Positions 8,180 through 25,185 of a DNA stretch of 42,059 bases are shown here, one piece after another. A program made the position numbers and the translations under genes. Numbering within the stretch: position 1 is the first letter of the stretch; each line of letters starts with the position of its first letter. The notes beneath the pieces are model-generated. The model was not told the origin of the DNA and made no database searches. It saw only the letters and a list, made by a program, of their open reading frames with translations. The stretch is from a virus: the IMG/VR virus record IMGVR_UViG_3300033153_004976, positions 1-42,059 of that record. One strand, given 5' to 3'.

Positions 8180-11100
8180 ATGACAATATTCGGAGATATG
8201 TTTCATTCCTTAATGGACGCTAGAAAAAGTGTAGCAGTTGCTGCAGATAAATACAATTTAGCACAAGCTGGTTTGTATCCTAAAGCAGATCCGTCTAAAA
8301 GCTTAACGGTTCCTAGCTTAGAGCAACAAAAACAACAATTCATGCAGCAAGATCCTTTGTTGAATAAGTTGACACAAATTAAACAGATGTCAGAAGTTAC
8401 TAAAAGCAAAGCAGCAGTACCATGGAATGATCAAACGCAGAAATGGCTTAAACCTTTAATGCAAGATTATTTAAATAAAAGAGCTCCATTAGAAGGACTA
8501 CCTCAAGATAAAGGACAAGTATCAATACAAAATGTACCTCTTGTTGGAGATGTTGCTATTACCGGTGAAAGATCTGGATATATTGCTAGTTTAAGTGATG
8601 ATGTACTACAAAGCACTTACGAATCATTAGATTTAGATACAAGGAGAAATTTAACTGGTATAGAATATCAACCTAAAAAACAATGGGAACCTGAAAAAGC
8701 TGAAGGATTAACATTTGAAAAAGCTGAACCGTATCAAGAGATTCCAGAATGGTTAAAACAGAGAAGAGAAGTAGCTGCAGAGGGTATGCAAGATTATCAA
8801 GCACCAGTACAAAATGAAAGAGCTAATCATATTATTAGAAGAGAGTTAGAAGGATTCATTGAAGGTAAAACTCCTTACATACCTTTACCTACAGACTGGA
8901 TGGATAAAGCTTCTATCAATATGGGAATGAAAAATTATGTTTCAGATGCTATGGTTGATCAAGTATGGAACGATATGGATGCTTCATGGAAGTTCCAAAT
9001 ATCACCTTCTGATACAGCTTTAGAGCTTGATCAGACTGCATTTTACGGTGCTGCAGAAAGACAATTCACGATGGATATGTTTAATTTAAATGTAGCACCA
9101 AAGCCTACATTTATGATGACAACTAAAGAGTTAAATGCAGAAATGGAAAAATTAGTAACAATAGCTGATACAAGAGTACCTATTTTAGGAGATATTCCTT
9201 TGGTGGGGATTATACCAAACGCTATTGCTAAAGATATAGAAGCACAAAAACTTTATGAATGGGGAACCCCTGATAGAAGATTATATGAAAGACAAGTCAC
9301 TAAAAGTACAATGAAAGGATTAGCTCAAGGAATCACCATAGGGGTAAGTGGGAAGTTTGGATATCAACCTACATCACCTGAATACTTTCCTGAAATACCA
9401 GGACAAGAAGTAGGATATGGTTCAGGATTATTAGTAGGATCATTTATAGGATATTCAGGATTAGCTAAGATGGTAAGACCCTTGTTATTAAAGAGTCCTC
9501 AATTATTAGCTATGTCTAAAAGCCATAAATTATTGTTCAATACTATAGTACAGAACGCTGGAGAAGAAGTAGTAGAAATAGGTATACGTAAAGGAACTTA
9601 TCAGCCTTACACTGTATATGATTTTATGGCAGGAATGGCTATAGGAAGTATGTTCGAAGTAGGATCGTTTGCATTCGGTAAAATGAAAACCAAATGGAAC
9701 GCAAATAGAGCAAGAATGATGGATGCTTTAGAAACTAGACTTGAAATAGAAACATACAAGAAAGGAGCCAAATTGAATGATGCTGAAGTCACAGCAGTAG
9801 TTAAAGATGTGCCTTTCTCTAAAGACACAATGCTAGGAGATTTGTTCTACGAATCACAATTAGCATATTTGTTAAATATGAAAAAGCTTCATCCTCAAAA
9901 GGTTGAAGTTAAAGGAGCGTTTATTGATAGAGCTAAAGGGGTAGCAAGTGATGTTTATCATACTTTTGATTTAAAAGATTATTCAGAAGTTAAAATGCTT
10001 AAATCTAAAGAAGCTACTCATATTGATCTTGATAAATTAGATCAAAAGATGCAGCAAAAATATTACGAGGATGCAATTGATCCAAATCTATTTAGAAACT
10101 TAAATTCAGTCAAAGCTTATAGGAAGTTTTTAGATACAAGATTCCCAGATGAAGGGTTCTTGGCTAAGAAAGGAAAGAAATTTCAAATTTCAAATAAAGA
10201 AATTCAAACAACGTTTGATAATTACATAAATACAGTAGCTAGGTTAGGGGAGAAGCTAGATCATACAAAAGTTAAAACAGTAATGGTAGGCTCTGATATA
10301 TTTAGCCAAATGGGAGCGAAAATGAATATGAATGTAAATAAAATAAAGAATTATTGGAAGAACAGGAAAGCACTTAAAGAGGTTGGCGAAATAGATGAAA
10401 TAGGTGAATTTTTAGTAGAAGCTATGAAGTCAAGGAAGGCTGATCCTTTTGGAATAAGAGATTTATATATTGATAAAATAGGTTACTTAGCTAAGCGTGG
10501 GTATAGTACGTTTTCAGAGTTTAATCAGAAGCTAAAAGATTTTGATTTTGCTACAGATTATTTAAAAAAATATATAGGAGATGATTTTATTAAAAGGGGG
10601 TATGCAACTCCAGAAGGATTTTTAGATTTAGTTGAAAGTAAAGGTTACGATTTGAACAAATTAAAAGAGAGTTTTTCTAGTGATCCGATTAGGCCTTTGA
10701 AGCCTGGAGAGGGTCAAATGGTAAATAAAATTGAAAATGATATTGTAAAAGCTGTTAAAAAGAAAGCTTTTGATGCTATGCAAGTCGCTGAACAGTCCGT
10801 GGAAGTAAAAGCAGAACAAAAAGGTGATATAGATCCTTTAGAACCATCTCCAGAGATGAAAGAAAAAATAGAAAGCGATAAGATTTTTTTAGATGATCAA
10901 TTAAAGAAAATTAAAGATTACGATCAAAAGATGAAGAAAGGTGAAAGGAATTTTGGTAAAGATAAATTCAGATTAAATCAAAAACAAGCTAATAGCTTAA
11001 ACAACCTTACTCAGACGTTAGGATTAAGATCATATATAGTACAAACATTTAAAGATATTAACGATGCAGCATTTGAATTAGGTACAGATCCTAAAGGTCT

Positions 11101-20376: not shown

Positions 20377-20934
20377 TTAAATATGAGGCCATGCTTTATA
20401 GTTTAATATTAAGCAAATTGTAGGTTTTGTTATATCCCAAATGGAGCTAAAATATTTACAAATCTTAGCTAAACTCCAACTAAAGACTTCATGTAAACAT
20501 CTGGCTAATTTGACTTTTTGATTGTTAAGCTTTACTCCTCCTACCTCTTCACCATATCTTTTAACTTTCAGCCCAGTTCTATAAGCATGTTGTTCGTTTT
20601 CACTTTGGGTACACCATTCTAAATTTGATACAACATTGTTAGTTTTAATTCCATCTAGGTGGTTTGTTTGAGGTTTATTTTCAGGATTCTCTATAAATGC
20701 TTTCGCTACAAGCCTTCCTACTTTGCAGGTTTTTCTAAATCTTTTATATGAGAGTATAACAATTAAGTATCCATCGCTGTTTTGAGAAAGCTTTTTTGGT
20801 TTGCCTTTATAAAAATTGTTTCTACCATTTATATGCATAACATGTCGATCAACAGATTTTACATTTCCTTTATTAGAAACCATATAACTGTTTTTAAATT
20901 GTTTGATAGGAACAGGCTTCCAAATTTCTTTCAT
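20377..20934 (-). CDS. NUMOD4/HNH homing endonuclease
   Basis: The 185-residue protein begins with the NUMOD4 element (MKEIWKPVPIKQFKNSYMVS, then NKGNVKSVDRH) and continues with an HNH_3-type core: TNHLDGIKTNNVVSNLEW, then CTQSENEQHAYR. A C-terminal basic region (VGGVKLNNQKVKLARCL) probably recognises DNA. It starts one base after the SSB-like stop, as expected of an inserted, free-standing homing gene riding on the operon. It is clearly related to the antisense gene at 38907. Confidence 0.9.
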   Translation of the reverse strand: MKEIWKPVPIKQFKNSYMVSNKGNVKSVDRHVMHINGRNNFYKGKPKKLSQNSDGYLIVILSYKRFRKTCKVGRLVAKAFIENPENKPQTNHLDGIKTNNVVSNLEWCTQSENEQHAYRTGLKVKRYGEEVGGVKLNNQKVKLARCLHEVFSWSLAKICKYFSSIWDITKPTICLILNYKAWPHI

Positions 20935-20935
20935 A

Positions 20936-21490
20936 TTAAAATGGGTAAGGCATTTCAGTAACTTCTTTATCAGATATGAGATCTGGATATAATTTTAGCA
21001 TCAACTCTTTTGTAAGTTCATATACTTCAGAGGCTACTTTAGTATTGTCTGAGCTTCCAGTTCTAGTTGCTATGATTCGAGAAGCTGCATTGGCAGCCTG
21101 TCCCCAACAGATTTCTTTTCTTCTTTTTAAATCAAAGTCTTCTTTATCTTTTTTCCAATCTTCATGCGGAGTACTTTCTTTAGTAAGATCCAAGTTCTGA
21201 TCCTGATGTTCTATTGATCTTTGTTCGTTGTTACCAGGAATCACATCATAAGTTGATCTGTTGTTTCCTATATCTTTTTTTATAATAATTACTCTGTCTC
21301 CGGATTTAAAGCTTTGCATAGCTTTGTAAGCTCCTGAACTCTTACTTACTTCAAGAGTGTGGTCTTCTCCGTTAATGATGAAATCGAATGCATAAGATGT
21401 CTTTCCATAACTGTTTTGACCTTCTCTAGGTGAAGGTGTTTTAACTGTAGCGTGTTTAGATTCTCCTACTTGTAGACCTATAAATGCCAT
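20936..21490 (-). CDS. SSB-like protein with an acidic/aromatic tail
   Basis: The 184-residue protein starts MAFIGLQVGESKHATVK and has a beta-rich first half (SYAFDFIINGEDHTLEVSKS, then GDRVIIIKKD) consistent with an OB-type fold. A polar linker and a helical region (CWGQAANAASRIIATRT) follow. The end DKEVTEMPYPF resembles the acidic, Pro-Phe tail by which single-stranded-DNA-binding proteins recruit partners. It would protect ssDNA in replication or recombination. It is the only replication-type protein suggested in the window. TAACC is 10 nt upstream. Confidence 0.6.
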   Translation of the reverse strand: MAFIGLQVGESKHATVKTPSPREGQNSYGKTSYAFDFIINGEDHTLEVSKSSGAYKAMQSFKSGDRVIIIKKDIGNNRSTYDVIPGNNEQRSIEHQDQNLDLTKESTPHEDWKKDKEDFDLKRRKEICWGQAANAASRIIATRTGSSDNTKVASEVYELTKELMLKLYPDLISDKEVTEMPYPF

Positions 21491-21514
21491 TGTTTATTTG
21501 GTTAGTTTTTAAGT

Positions 21515-22066
21515 TTAATTATCAAAAAAGAATACAATCCTAATGTTTTCATCGTCTTCAAACCCTGTAGATTTTAATTGTTTTATTATAAACTCAATTG
21601 GAGATCCTGTGGTTTTAAATAATTTAAAAAGTTTTCGTTCTCCTACTTCGCCAAAGTGCTTGCCATTTGTATCTCTACAAGTTCCTGTGATATTACCTTC
21701 TTCATCTTTTTCTAATATAAGACTAGAATCATATATCGTTTGTTCTAATAATTTTTTAGGAATTTCTTTAAGTTCTTTCAAAGTAAACCAACTGATAGAG
21801 TGTGCATCACAATCCCATACATCTAGTTGGTGTAAAAATCCGTGGCTAGCATTAGGGGGGCAACCTTTGGGCTTGCATATTGGTTGTATATTATTAGCGT
21901 TTCTTATATTTGCTAAAAATGCGAATAGTTCATAATTTCTGTCATCGTAAGGATGAGGACACCAATATTTTTTCTTATCATAGTTTTCTTGTCTGAATGC
22001 ATCTTCTAGCATCACCCATTTTTTGTCTTCTTTGTTTTCTGCAAACATATGTATATCACATCCCAT
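21515..22066 (-). CDS. Conserved phage protein with an MGCDIH start
   Basis: The 183-residue protein begins MGCDIHMFAENKEDKKWVML, a signature shared by a widespread phage and prophage family of unknown function. Further family-like segments are YDDRNYELFAFLANIRN and HGFLHQLDVWDCDAHSISWF. The conserved Cys, Asp and His near the start hint at metal or nucleotide binding, but no activity is established. TTAACC lies 10 nt before the ATG and within the end of the upstream zinc protein. Confidence 0.8.
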   Translation of the reverse strand: MGCDIHMFAENKEDKKWVMLEDAFRQENYDKKKYWCPHPYDDRNYELFAFLANIRNANNIQPICKPKGCPPNASHGFLHQLDVWDCDAHSISWFTLKELKEIPKKLLEQTIYDSSLILEKDEEGNITGTCRDTNGKHFGEVGERKLFKLFKTTGSPIEFIIKQLKSTGFEDDENIRIVFFFDN

Positions 22067-22510: not shown

Positions 22511-22969
22511 ATGGAAAAACGTGGAAGAAAATTAAATCCTAAATCTAAAGTTGTTCTTGATCAGTTGTATATCTTTATTGAAGATGTAGGAGAAGCAACT
22601 GCCAACGAAATATGTATTGAGTTGTTTGGTAGTATTTCTATGAAGCTTATGGCAAAAACCAGAAACTATATTATGTGGTTAAGATTAAAATTAAGAAAAG
22701 AAAAGAATATTTATTTTTATGCAGTAGATCACAAGTATCAGTTTTTGGATGAAAAAACCTATATATCTTGCTTGGTAGAAAACAAAAATAGATGGGAAGG
22801 AACTACTAAAGCTATTCAAAACATGATGAAGCAAGGTCTTGAAGATCATCCTCAAATAAAACAAAACATAGTACAACTTTTAGGAGAAATGAACTATACT
22901 CTTTTACAAGGAAATGTTAAAACAAATAATGTATTACCTAATCCTAAAAAAAATGACAATAATAAATAA
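22511..22969 (+). CDS. Basic hypothetical protein, 152 aa
   Basis: The 152-residue protein begins MEKRGRKLNPKSKVVLDQLY and has a predicted helical, winged-helix-like first half (TANEICIELFGSISMKLMAK, then IMWLRLKLRKEKN). A DNA-binding regulator is plausible from this pattern and from its place directly after the operator, but the family is not recognised. The ATG is 12 bp from a TATAAT, giving a very short leader. Its end overlaps the ParB-like start. Confidence 0.65.
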   Translation: MEKRGRKLNPKSKVVLDQLYIFIEDVGEATANEICIELFGSISMKLMAKTRNYIMWLRLKLRKEKNIYFYAVDHKYQFLDEKTYISCLVENKNRWEGTTKAIQNMMKQGLEDHPQIKQNIVQLLGEMNYTLLQGNVKTNNVLPNPKKNDNNK

Positions 22970-23774
22970 TTTACCAATAGATTCAATTAAGGCTGATTCT
23001 AACCAACCACGTAAAAGATTTAATCAGAAAGATCTTGAAGACCTGGCACAAGGAATTAAATCAGAAGGAATAATTAATCCAATTGAAATTGATGATAACA
23101 ATATCATTATTACCGGAGAACGTAGATGGAGAGCTGCTAAAATAGCAGGACTTAAAAAAGTTCCATGCTTTATAGGAAAAGAAATGTCAAAAAAGGAACG
23201 CTTCAAACACCAACTCATTGAAAATGTACACCACAATACTATGTCAGACATTGATACCGCTAAAGCATTAAAGAAAACACTTATTAATTATGGCAAGTTT
23301 ATTCCGGGTAAAAAGTTGCAGGGATCAGACCAGGGTATGACTTGGCTTTCAAATGAAATAGGAAAGTCAGTAGGTTATGTTTGGGAAAAGCTCATACTCC
23401 TCGACCAAACTAAAGAATTTCAAGAAGCTATTGATGATGGAGTAATATCAAGTACAAGTGTAAGAGCAATCAATGCTGCTCCTAAAAAACATAAAAAGAT
23501 TATAGAAAAAAGAATTGTTAAAGAAATTTTAGCTTTAGATTTAAAGGACGACACTGTTGAAACAGGTATAATCAAAATAAACAAAGTTCTTGATGGTAAA
23601 AAAGAATTCTTAAATGGATCAAACATAATAACAACAGCTAAGAAACTAGTAAATCTTTTAGATAAATGTCCCGTAACTGAAGTAAGTGAAACTAATAGGC
23701 CTTTTATGGTGCTAGTGTTATCTGAATTACGAACAAGAATAATATCTTATATGAACAACCAAACAGTAAAATAA
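22953..23774 (+). CDS. ParB/Spo0J-domain protein
   Basis: With the ATG at 22953 the protein has 273 residues; a longer frame from 22914 would add an unlikely 13 residues. It has the ParB N-terminal nuclease/CTPase-like domain: PIDSIKADSNQPRKRF, then residues 55-62 GERRWRAA, and LIENVHHNTMSDIDTAKAL. A KorB/ParB-type HTH (SVGYVWEKLILLDQTKEFQE, then ISSTSVRAINAA) follows. ParB partitions plasmids and chromosomes. No ParA was found, so a regulatory or accessory DNA role, or use of a host ParA, is possible. Confidence 0.85.
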   Translation: MTIINNLPIDSIKADSNQPRKRFNQKDLEDLAQGIKSEGIINPIEIDDNNIIITGERRWRAAKIAGLKKVPCFIGKEMSKKERFKHQLIENVHHNTMSDIDTAKALKKTLINYGKFIPGKKLQGSDQGMTWLSNEIGKSVGYVWEKLILLDQTKEFQEAIDDGVISSTSVRAINAAPKKHKKIIEKRIVKEILALDLKDDTVETGIIKINKVLDGKKEFLNGSNIITTAKKLVNLLDKCPVTEVSETNRPFMVLVLSELRTRIISYMNNQTVK

Positions 23775-23781
23775 AACATGT

Positions 23782-23832
23782 TATAATTTGGATATGAATA
23801 AAAAAGAACCACCACTCCCATAGCGGTTCTTT
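23782..23832 (+). promoter_or_regulatory. TATAAT box, minimal ORF and hairpin after the ParB-like gene
   Basis: A TATAAT (23782-23787) is followed by a 9-codon frame MNKKEPPLP at 23794 and by the stem AAAGAACC/GGTTCTTT (23803-23810 with 23825-23832). The hairpin is followed by TTTAG-type sequence only, so it is a moderate terminator for the ParB transcript. The short ORF and the TATAAT may be coincidental. A leader-peptide attenuator is possible but not supported by any downstream gene that would be regulated. Confidence 0.4.
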
Positions 23833-23883
23833 AGTTTGGTACATATAGTACCCTACGATTCCTGTACATACTATATATAGGGG

Positions 23884-23912
23884 TTGCAAATAAATCAAGG
23901 GTAAGTTATAAT
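23884..23912 (+). promoter_or_regulatory. Sigma70-like promoter of the noncoding transcript
   Basis: TTGCAA (23884-23889), a 17-bp spacer and TATAAT (23907-23912) give a near-consensus promoter pointing right. Transcription would start near 23919, upstream of about 320 bp without a convincing gene. Confidence 0.65.
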
Positions 23913-23918
23913 GAAGTC

Positions 23919-24213
23919 CACAACTAATTTTGAAGAGAGCTAAAATACGGCTCTATAATCCGTATCTACGATTCCCATTGGAACCTCCCGTCCTCGTTTG
24001 TGGAGAGGATGAGAAACAGAGATGAAAGAGTGCAAAGTTCCGAGAGACACGTACTACTTATCTCTACCTGGTAAAGCGAGACCGTAGCAGGTAGATCAAT
24101 ACAGATCAATATCATGGACCTCAAGCATAAAACTTTCAAAACGTTCAAACTTTCTTTAAACTACTGCGAAGTAGAGGGGAGAGATAAACCTAAGCATTGA
24201 GGGTATAGTTTTT
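23919..24213 (+). ncRNA. Putative structured noncoding RNA, about 295 nt
   Basis: No plausible protein is encoded here, yet the stretch has its own promoter and ends in a T6 run (24208-24213). Predicted helices include AGAGC/GCTCT (23936/23950), ATACGG/CCGTAT (23945/23960), GGAAC/GTTCC (23980/24037) around GTCCTC/GAGGAT (23990/24005), TCTACCTG/CAGGTAGA (24063/24088), and CTACT/AGTAG (24161/24170). The first two share base 23950 and exclude each other, as in a switch. It does not match tmRNA, RNase P or 6S signatures I know. It could regulate replication or act as an origin-linked RNA. Confidence 0.5.
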
Positions 24214-24246
24214 TAAAAGATGATTTAGATTTTTTATAATTAAAAA

Positions 24247-24564
24247 ATGTTTATGAAGAAAACAGTTAAAGCTAAAATACCAGCACAGAAAGCAAGAGTA
24301 ATTGAAAAACAAGTCTTTGTTTGCGACTTTTGCGAGAAGCAGTCTCATTTAACATCGTGTTCAATATGCAGAAGAGACGTATGTACTAGTTGTGGAGACT
24401 ATGATTTTGGATCAATAAGTGATTTCCCAGATCGATATTGTCCTACATGTTATGAATTAAGATTTAAGAAGTATGGTAAACAATTGGATAAGATTGAAAA
24501 GGATGCATGGAAAGCTAAAGAAGCTATAATTAAAAAAATTAAGAAAGAATCATGTTTAACTTAA
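24247..24564 (+). CDS. Zinc-finger protein, 105 aa
   Basis: The protein has four Cys pairs: CDFCEK, CSICRR, CTSCGD and CPTCYE, spaced like a RING/FYVE-type or double zinc-ribbon fold. A basic helical tail (LDKIEKDAWKAKEAIIKKIK) follows. The start may be ATG 24247 or ATG 24253. A TATAAT at 24234-24239 places the transcript start at or next to the first ATG, so the mRNA may be leaderless. The final LT-stop is TTAACTTAA. A DNA or protein binder is likely; function is unknown. Confidence 0.7.
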   Translation: MFMKKTVKAKIPAQKARVIEKQVFVCDFCEKQSHLTSCSICRRDVCTSCGDYDFGSISDFPDRYCPTCYELRFKKYGKQLDKIEKDAWKAKEAIIKKIKKESCLT

Positions 24565-24976: not shown

Positions 24977-25054
24977 GAGGCCCACCGTGGGAAGTCCCGC
25001 GTTCAATTAGCGTCATGATATTCCCCTGAAAGTAAATCCATCACGGTGCTTAGG
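24972..25054 (+). ncRNA. Long interrupted hairpin, structured element
   Basis: CCTAAG (24972-24977) and CACCGTG (24983-24989) pair with CACGGTG (25042-25048) and CTTAGG (25049-25054), making 13 base pairs with a 5-nt bulge AGGCC. The interior can add GGGAA/TTCCC. It is locally GC-rich in an AT-rich genome, has no T run, and lies between the early and late transcription units just upstream of the late promoter and the packaging genes. It may be an RNA processing or termination signal, or a DNA packaging or recombination site. Confidence 0.5.
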
Positions 25055-25084
25055 CTATTATAAAACACTTTCCTCAACAGACAA

Positions 25085-25112
25085 TTGATTTACTTCACGG
25101 GTCATGTATAAT
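25085..25112 (+). promoter_or_regulatory. Putative late-operon promoter
   Basis: TTGATT (25085-25090), a 16-bp spacer and a perfect TATAAT (25107-25112) precede the first gene of the long rightward operon that encodes packaging, head, tail and lysis proteins. No other equally good promoter was noticed between here and the terminase genes. Confidence 0.6.
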
Positions 25113-25185
25113 TAAATCACTTAATCTCGCAACTATAATTTTAATAGTAGACACTAAGCTAGGAACAGTACGAGCTCATGGAGAG

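Follow-up and report, generated by a model that had tools for sequence, protein, structure and literature searches.

What might a phage encode in a stretch of some 300 bases from which no protein can credibly be read? This question is raised by a viral record of 42,059 nt (IMGVR_UViG_3300033153_004976; "the window" in this text, meaning the whole stretch of DNA that was analysed), in which region 23884-24213 has a ParB-like gene on one side and a series of small genes on the other. The window is that of a tailed phage, with genes for an internal virion protein, tail fibre, endolysin, HNH endonuclease, ParB, TerS, TerL, portal and capsid. Positions 20377-22066 of its minus strand hold a row of three genes (183-185 aa), one of which is a clear HNH endonuclease. 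An earlier note, made from the letters alone, had described the region as an independent structured noncoding transcript and had suggested a regulatory or replication-control RNA, or else a transcribed origin. The likely product of this region is, in our view, an independent phage RNA of about 300 nt that acts in trans and is homologous to, though divergent from, the EGFOA RNA class (Rfam RF02955). The features of the locus are collected in Table 1.

Table 1. Features of the RNA locus and its surroundings, with window coordinates and the basis of each call.
Feature	Positions	Strand	Basis
ParB-like gene; neighbour, unlikely to belong to the system	22914-23774	+	Pfam ParB_N, E 1e-22; PHROGs
Putative sigma-70-like promoter, TTGCAA-17-TATAAT	23884-23912	+	consensus scan, 10/12
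RNA, predicted extent of about 295 nt	23918-24214	+	promoter position and T6 run; core through homology
5' domain, two mutually exclusive hairpins	23936-23965	+	read from sequence; no covariation support
Conserved motif CCGUCCUCGU; last five bases (23993-23997) are the pseudoknot 5' strand	23988-23997	+	
Possible weak P2, UUGU/ACAG (23998-24001/24016-24019)	23998-24019	+	position equivalent to P2 of relatives
P4 hairpin, GAGAUGA/UUAUCUC (24019-24025/24058-24064), abutting P5	24019-24064	+	predicted with and without constraint
P5 hairpin, UCUACCUG/CAGGUAGA, with 17-nt loop GUAAAGCGAGACCGUAG (24071-24087)	24063-24095	+	stem covaries in 25 sequences; loop conserved
Pseudoknot 3' strand GCGAG, partner CUCGU (23993-23997)	24076-24080	+	covariation at three positions
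3' domain closed by CCUCAA-GC/GC-A-UUGAGG	24119-24203	+	predicted fold; no covariation support
3' hairpin CUUUCUUU/GGGGAGAG, inner CUACU/AGUAG; equivalent of the GGGR hairpin of relatives	24150-24183	+	fold; shuffle comparison
T6 run, possible 3' end	24209-24214	+	read from sequence

The outline of the transcript is present as the earlier note had drawn it. The promoter sequence and the T6 run are both found, and the approximately 295 nt that had been called free of genes indeed contain no credible one, the longest ORF inside 23884-24213 being a frame of 60 aa on the minus strand with a TTG start. A terminator scan called no canonical intrinsic terminator at the T6 run. Both of the 5' helices exist (AGAGC/GCUCU, 23936-23940/23950-23954; AUACGG/CCGUAU, 23945-23950/23960-23965) and exclude each other because base 23950 is common to the two; among the relatives that we collected, no close counterpart of this 5' domain was found. 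Taken individually, neither the promoter, the T6 run, the 5' helices nor the fold energy goes beyond chance, since the 305-nt segment (-73 kcal/mol, z -1.61) is equalled by 8 of 100 shuffles, and 2.5 kb contain 20 promoter-like sites, the present one included, where shuffles would give 10.5. Only 7 sites in the entire window combine a perfect TATAAT with a -35 element of the TTG type, and the fold of the opposite strand is no better than that of shuffles (z -0.92). The reported lack of tmRNA, RNase P, 6S RNA and tRNA signatures holds, because an Rfam scan at the gathering threshold returned no match to RNase P, 6S or any other family and ARAGORN found no tRNA or tmRNA in it.

Other structures were observed nearby. 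A terminator-like hairpin follows parB on the minus strand (23803-23832) and an inverted repeat, TACATATAGTA/TACTATATATA, stands just before the promoter (23840-23879), a possible insulator or operator. A second noncoding gap (24977-25158) carries promoter-like sites on both strands, its fold being no better than that of shuffles (z +0.41).

The most important element, a pseudoknotted core at 23988-24095, had escaped the first reading. The Rfam/Infernal scan that had been proposed as a check gives a divided answer, with nothing at the gathering threshold and, once the threshold is relaxed, EGFOA RF02955 (Rfam type Gene; sRNA) as best match at 23971-24117 on the plus strand. Its 24.4 bits fall short of the curated cut-off of 37.7 bits, and the window is thus not a member by score, which limits any claim that the element "is an EGFOA RNA". 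The E value of this match amounts to 0.08 against all of Rfam, with 1.7 kb searched, and to 4.7e-4 for EGFOA alone over the whole record. The aligned bases lie mostly in CCGUCCUCGU and GGUAAAGCGAGACC. Conserved parts of the class are nonetheless in place, namely the upstream strand CCGUCCUNGU at 23988-23997, the loop GUAAAGCNAGACC at 24071-24083, and a hairpin with an 8-bp stem and a loop of exactly 17 nt. Relaxed matches to BTnc231, greA and 7SK were far under their cut-offs and were dropped.

Motif and covariance searches yielded about 25 relatives in phage contigs and Bacillota genomes. In IMG/VR, the pattern CCGTCCTNGT...GGTAAAGCNAGACC retrieved one contig (L002), to which the EGFOA model assigns 44.7 bits, above the cut-off. 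Looser patterns led to L053, L054 and L055 (68.9, 68.9 and 49.8 bits, respectively), and a scan of prokaryote genomes to Paenibacillus doosanensis (L064; 59.0 bits). That patterns read from the window recover true EGFOA RNAs above the cut-off counts for homology. Family searches added matches in Paenibacillaceae (L084-L090) and in another Bacillota genome (L106), and further scans gained more viral contigs. Several candidates were rejected by eye: in L066 and L068 the loop motif is a chance occurrence within seemingly coding sequence, as it is in L063 and in a number of pattern matches with 0-2 of 3 pseudoknot pairs, and L108, L110-L112 and L114 were judged to be coding, the first four owing their 3/3 pairs only to a pattern with two fixed positions and to the acceptance of G-U as a pair. 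Nucleotide similarity searches gave no informative match among annotated phages, and the RNAs of the relatives had no convincing match in phages and plasmids; none of 395 Bacteroidota genomes contained a match, in a scan in which no positive control responded.

In order to score the window independently, a covariance model (R1) was built from 12 relatives with the window left out. Its sole match in the window scores 28.3 bits (E 8.3e-6). When 0.74 Mb was searched jointly, for the most part phages whose terminases are related, background peaked at 11.6 bits and those relatives that had not been used for training scored 12.8-43.8 bits, with L090, L109 and L089 at only 12.8-14.3. A descriptor combining the loop motif, a stem of at least 5 bp and CCGT with 4 or 5 of the 5 pseudoknot pairs, composed after the site had been seen, occurs once in the window and in none of 300 simulated windows. 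One may still ask whether a structure of this kind could arise by chance in an AT-rich intergenic gap, as a fold z of only -1.6 would allow; the homology already contradicts this reading, given a covariance-model E of 8e-6, the covarying pseudoknot and the empty descriptor count in simulations, and we grant it almost no credence. Divergent homology to EGFOA is well supported by these sequence comparisons, and the element probably works like an EGFOA RNA.

The covariance search with homologous regions, likewise proposed at the outset, reveals compensatory changes across the relatives in both the pseudoknot and P5. In 25 distinct sequences, a 17-base loop, GUAAAGCNAGACCNNNG, is closed by a freely covarying stem, and the last five bases of CCGUNCUNGU are the pairing partner of loop bases 6-10. 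The resulting pseudoknot joins the loop to the CUNGU of the upstream CCGUCCUNGU motif (CUNGU/GCNAG) and is realised by different strands in different members: CUCGU/GCGAG in the window, CUAGU/GCUAG in L053, CUGGU/GCCAG in L002, ACGGU/GCCGU in L084, GUAGU/GCUAC in L106, CCGGU/GCCGG in L122 and CGUGU/GCACG in L124. The window forms 5 of 5 pairs, with the C-G variant at the freely varying middle pair. For pseudoknot and P5 together, 92% of the cells are paired and 75 cells are changed on both sides, versus 20.6 in shuffles. With a covariation score of 0.838, versus 0.178 in shuffles, they exceed all 500 shuffles and the slid controls (0.02-0.18), in a collection in which some relatives had been found by patterns that fix two pseudoknot positions and always leave the third free. 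One scan left three pseudoknot positions free, and genome matches came through the Rfam model, whose nested structure line for EGFOA does not show the pseudoknot pairing. When the three varying bases were free on both sides, the matches that Rfam accepted independently all paired at 3/3. The middle pair (columns 8/25) appears as GC in 12, AU in 6, CG in 4 and UA in 3 sequences, with no mismatches, and alignment A2 gives the same picture for pseudoknot and P5. L088 and L090, owing to a one-base shift of the loop, were not counted; read by eye, both can form the pseudoknot pairing. The claim of a structured, stand-alone noncoding RNA is thus supported by homology to a known noncoding RNA class and by compensatory changes, and not by folding energy; the stretch of about 300 bases, which encodes no protein and has kept the knotted core of EGFOA, very probably gives rise to a functional RNA.

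The surroundings of the core are more variable. In most relatives, P2 is a helix of 3-6 bp, often with a tetraloop, placed directly 3' of the pseudoknot strand and usually followed by AGG, and in the window it is at best UUGU/ACAG. The outer helix P3, which encloses P4 and P5, is paired at 6 of 8 window positions in the Rfam alignment and competes with P4. The motif CCGUUAGA, which about ten relatives carry at a distance of some 36-72 nt upstream of the core, is not present in the window, where the best match has 2 mismatches. In 19 of 25 members, a 3' hairpin with 7 bp or more carries GGGG or GGGA on its 3' side, versus a mean of 3.5 and a maximum of 7 for the same type of hairpin in 40 rounds of shuffling, and the window has such a hairpin as well, at 24150-24183. 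The RNA thus reaches past the 108-position Rfam model, and the window holds a divergent copy of it. We speculate, with considerable reserve, that EGFOA and its divergent relatives could make up a broad superfamily of phage RNAs reaching beyond that model and sharing the pseudoknotted core, with the pseudoknot beside P2 and P4 abutting P5, and the 3' G-rich hairpin; such RNAs might work in trans as ribozymes or belong to a phage ribonucleoprotein that has not been described. Within the window, positions 24058-24068 in the P4/P5 region and 24177-24187 in the 3' hairpin strand are complementary over 11 nt, a possible alternative fold.

What the RNA does can be approached through its neighbours. 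The gene at 24247 lies close behind it on the same strand, which would suit a cis-acting leader such as a riboswitch or attenuator; the downstream genes are, however, unrelated in most members and oppositely oriented in L103/L104, and cis regulation appears highly improbable to us because neighbours are not conserved. An RNA that controls replication or partition in concert with the ParB encoded next to it, or a transcribed origin, would fit the ParB-like gene just 5' of the RNA in the window and the ParA-like gene downstream of it in L072. However, the one phage with a close ParB relative (L003, 45% identity) has neither a gap nor the RNA 3' of parB, no par genes adjoin the other members examined and the region contains no iterons. 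We therefore hold this proposal, which goes back to the earlier note, to be improbable; the RNA lies near the major head protein gene in L071, before a DNA polymerase gene in L099, near serine recombinase genes in L092 and L125 and beside genes without known function in some relatives. Since neighbouring genes differ among relatives, ParB or replication control and cis regulation are both without support. The same heterogeneity, together with the opposite gene in L103/L104, argues for action in trans.

In phi29-like phages, pRNA takes part in DNA packaging, and a packaging role, or one in pac/cos recognition, deserves attention here because the RNA immediately precedes the gene for the large terminase in L105 and stands between terminase and portal in L101 (by gene homology also in L100), and because L132 and the window have a common order of RNA, TerS relative and TerL relative on one strand. 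Against this, other relatives adjoin DNA polymerase, ParA, recombinase or unknown genes, and the terminases concerned match different families (phrog_2 and phrog_675). Moreover, TerL homologues were found at 49 loci, and in the roughly 43 records searched the best EGFOA match had only 7.3 bits; a packaging RNA is hence a reading to which we give little weight. Even less probable is a guide or mobile-element RNA, similar to omega-RNA or an intron remnant: the HNH endonuclease gene at 20377-20934 and the serine recombinases of some relatives point in its direction, but no consistent nuclease partner accompanies the RNA in relatives and no intron or guide-RNA family of Rfam was matched.

Some neighbourhoods merit mention in their own right. 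In two Paenibacillaceae genomes, EGFOA-like RNAs that closely resemble each other are directly followed by genes for homologous proteins (L095, 8766-9434, DUF6075; L097, 9054-9455), which could be partners. Genes for NADAR, a methyltransferase and AAA_13, perhaps belonging to defence systems or mobile elements, lie close to weak EGFOA-like matches in L096, L097 and L098.

Returning to the divergent EGFOA homologue, action in trans is the most likely mode, probably together with a protein. The RNA would be transcribed from its own sigma-70 promoter (23884-23912) and would end near the T6 run (24209-24214). Its pseudoknot may fold the conserved loop back onto the CCGUC segment to create a compact core. 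During infection, this core could expose the conserved single-stranded CCGUC, GUAAA and ACC to a partner, for which a protein or a host RNA is the most likely candidate.

An unrecognised phage RNA is hereby placed in a known but unexplained class, which reaches below the Rfam cut-off; a literature search for EGFOA/RF02955 returned nothing relevant and no function. The class gains two testable structural elements, the covarying pseudoknot and the 3' G-rich hairpin, which open its function to mutation, probing and pull-down in culturable phage or prophage carriers such as those of Paenibacillus.

Among known phage RNAs, the phi29-type pRNA is similar in that the RNA sometimes adjoins packaging genes, and differs in that the window has no Rfam match to it and the neighbours of the relatives vary; to our knowledge, pRNA is confined to phi29-like phages. 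GOLLD and ROOL, which occur in phages and prophages, are large, structured RNAs of elaborate fold and unknown function (PMC12286853). The window RNA is also a structured phage RNA without known function, but it is much smaller and matched neither family in Rfam scans. The window contains no tRNA, and tRNA genes lie near few relatives (L119, tRNA-Ala at 10015-10088, about 300 nt upstream; L131, 79-151), as described for ROOL/GOLLD. In comparison with EGFOA itself, the window differs by its lower score, by a loop that ends in GUAG where most relatives have UGGG (L109 has GUGA), by a motif-loop spacer of 73 nt where most have 35-62, and by its weak P2, ambiguous P3 and lack of the upstream motif of a subset. 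It shares with EGFOA the upstream motif strand, the 17-nt loop, the P5 stem, the order of the parts and the phage setting, and it also possesses the pseudoknot and the 3' GGGR hairpin, both of which lie outside the Rfam covariance model.
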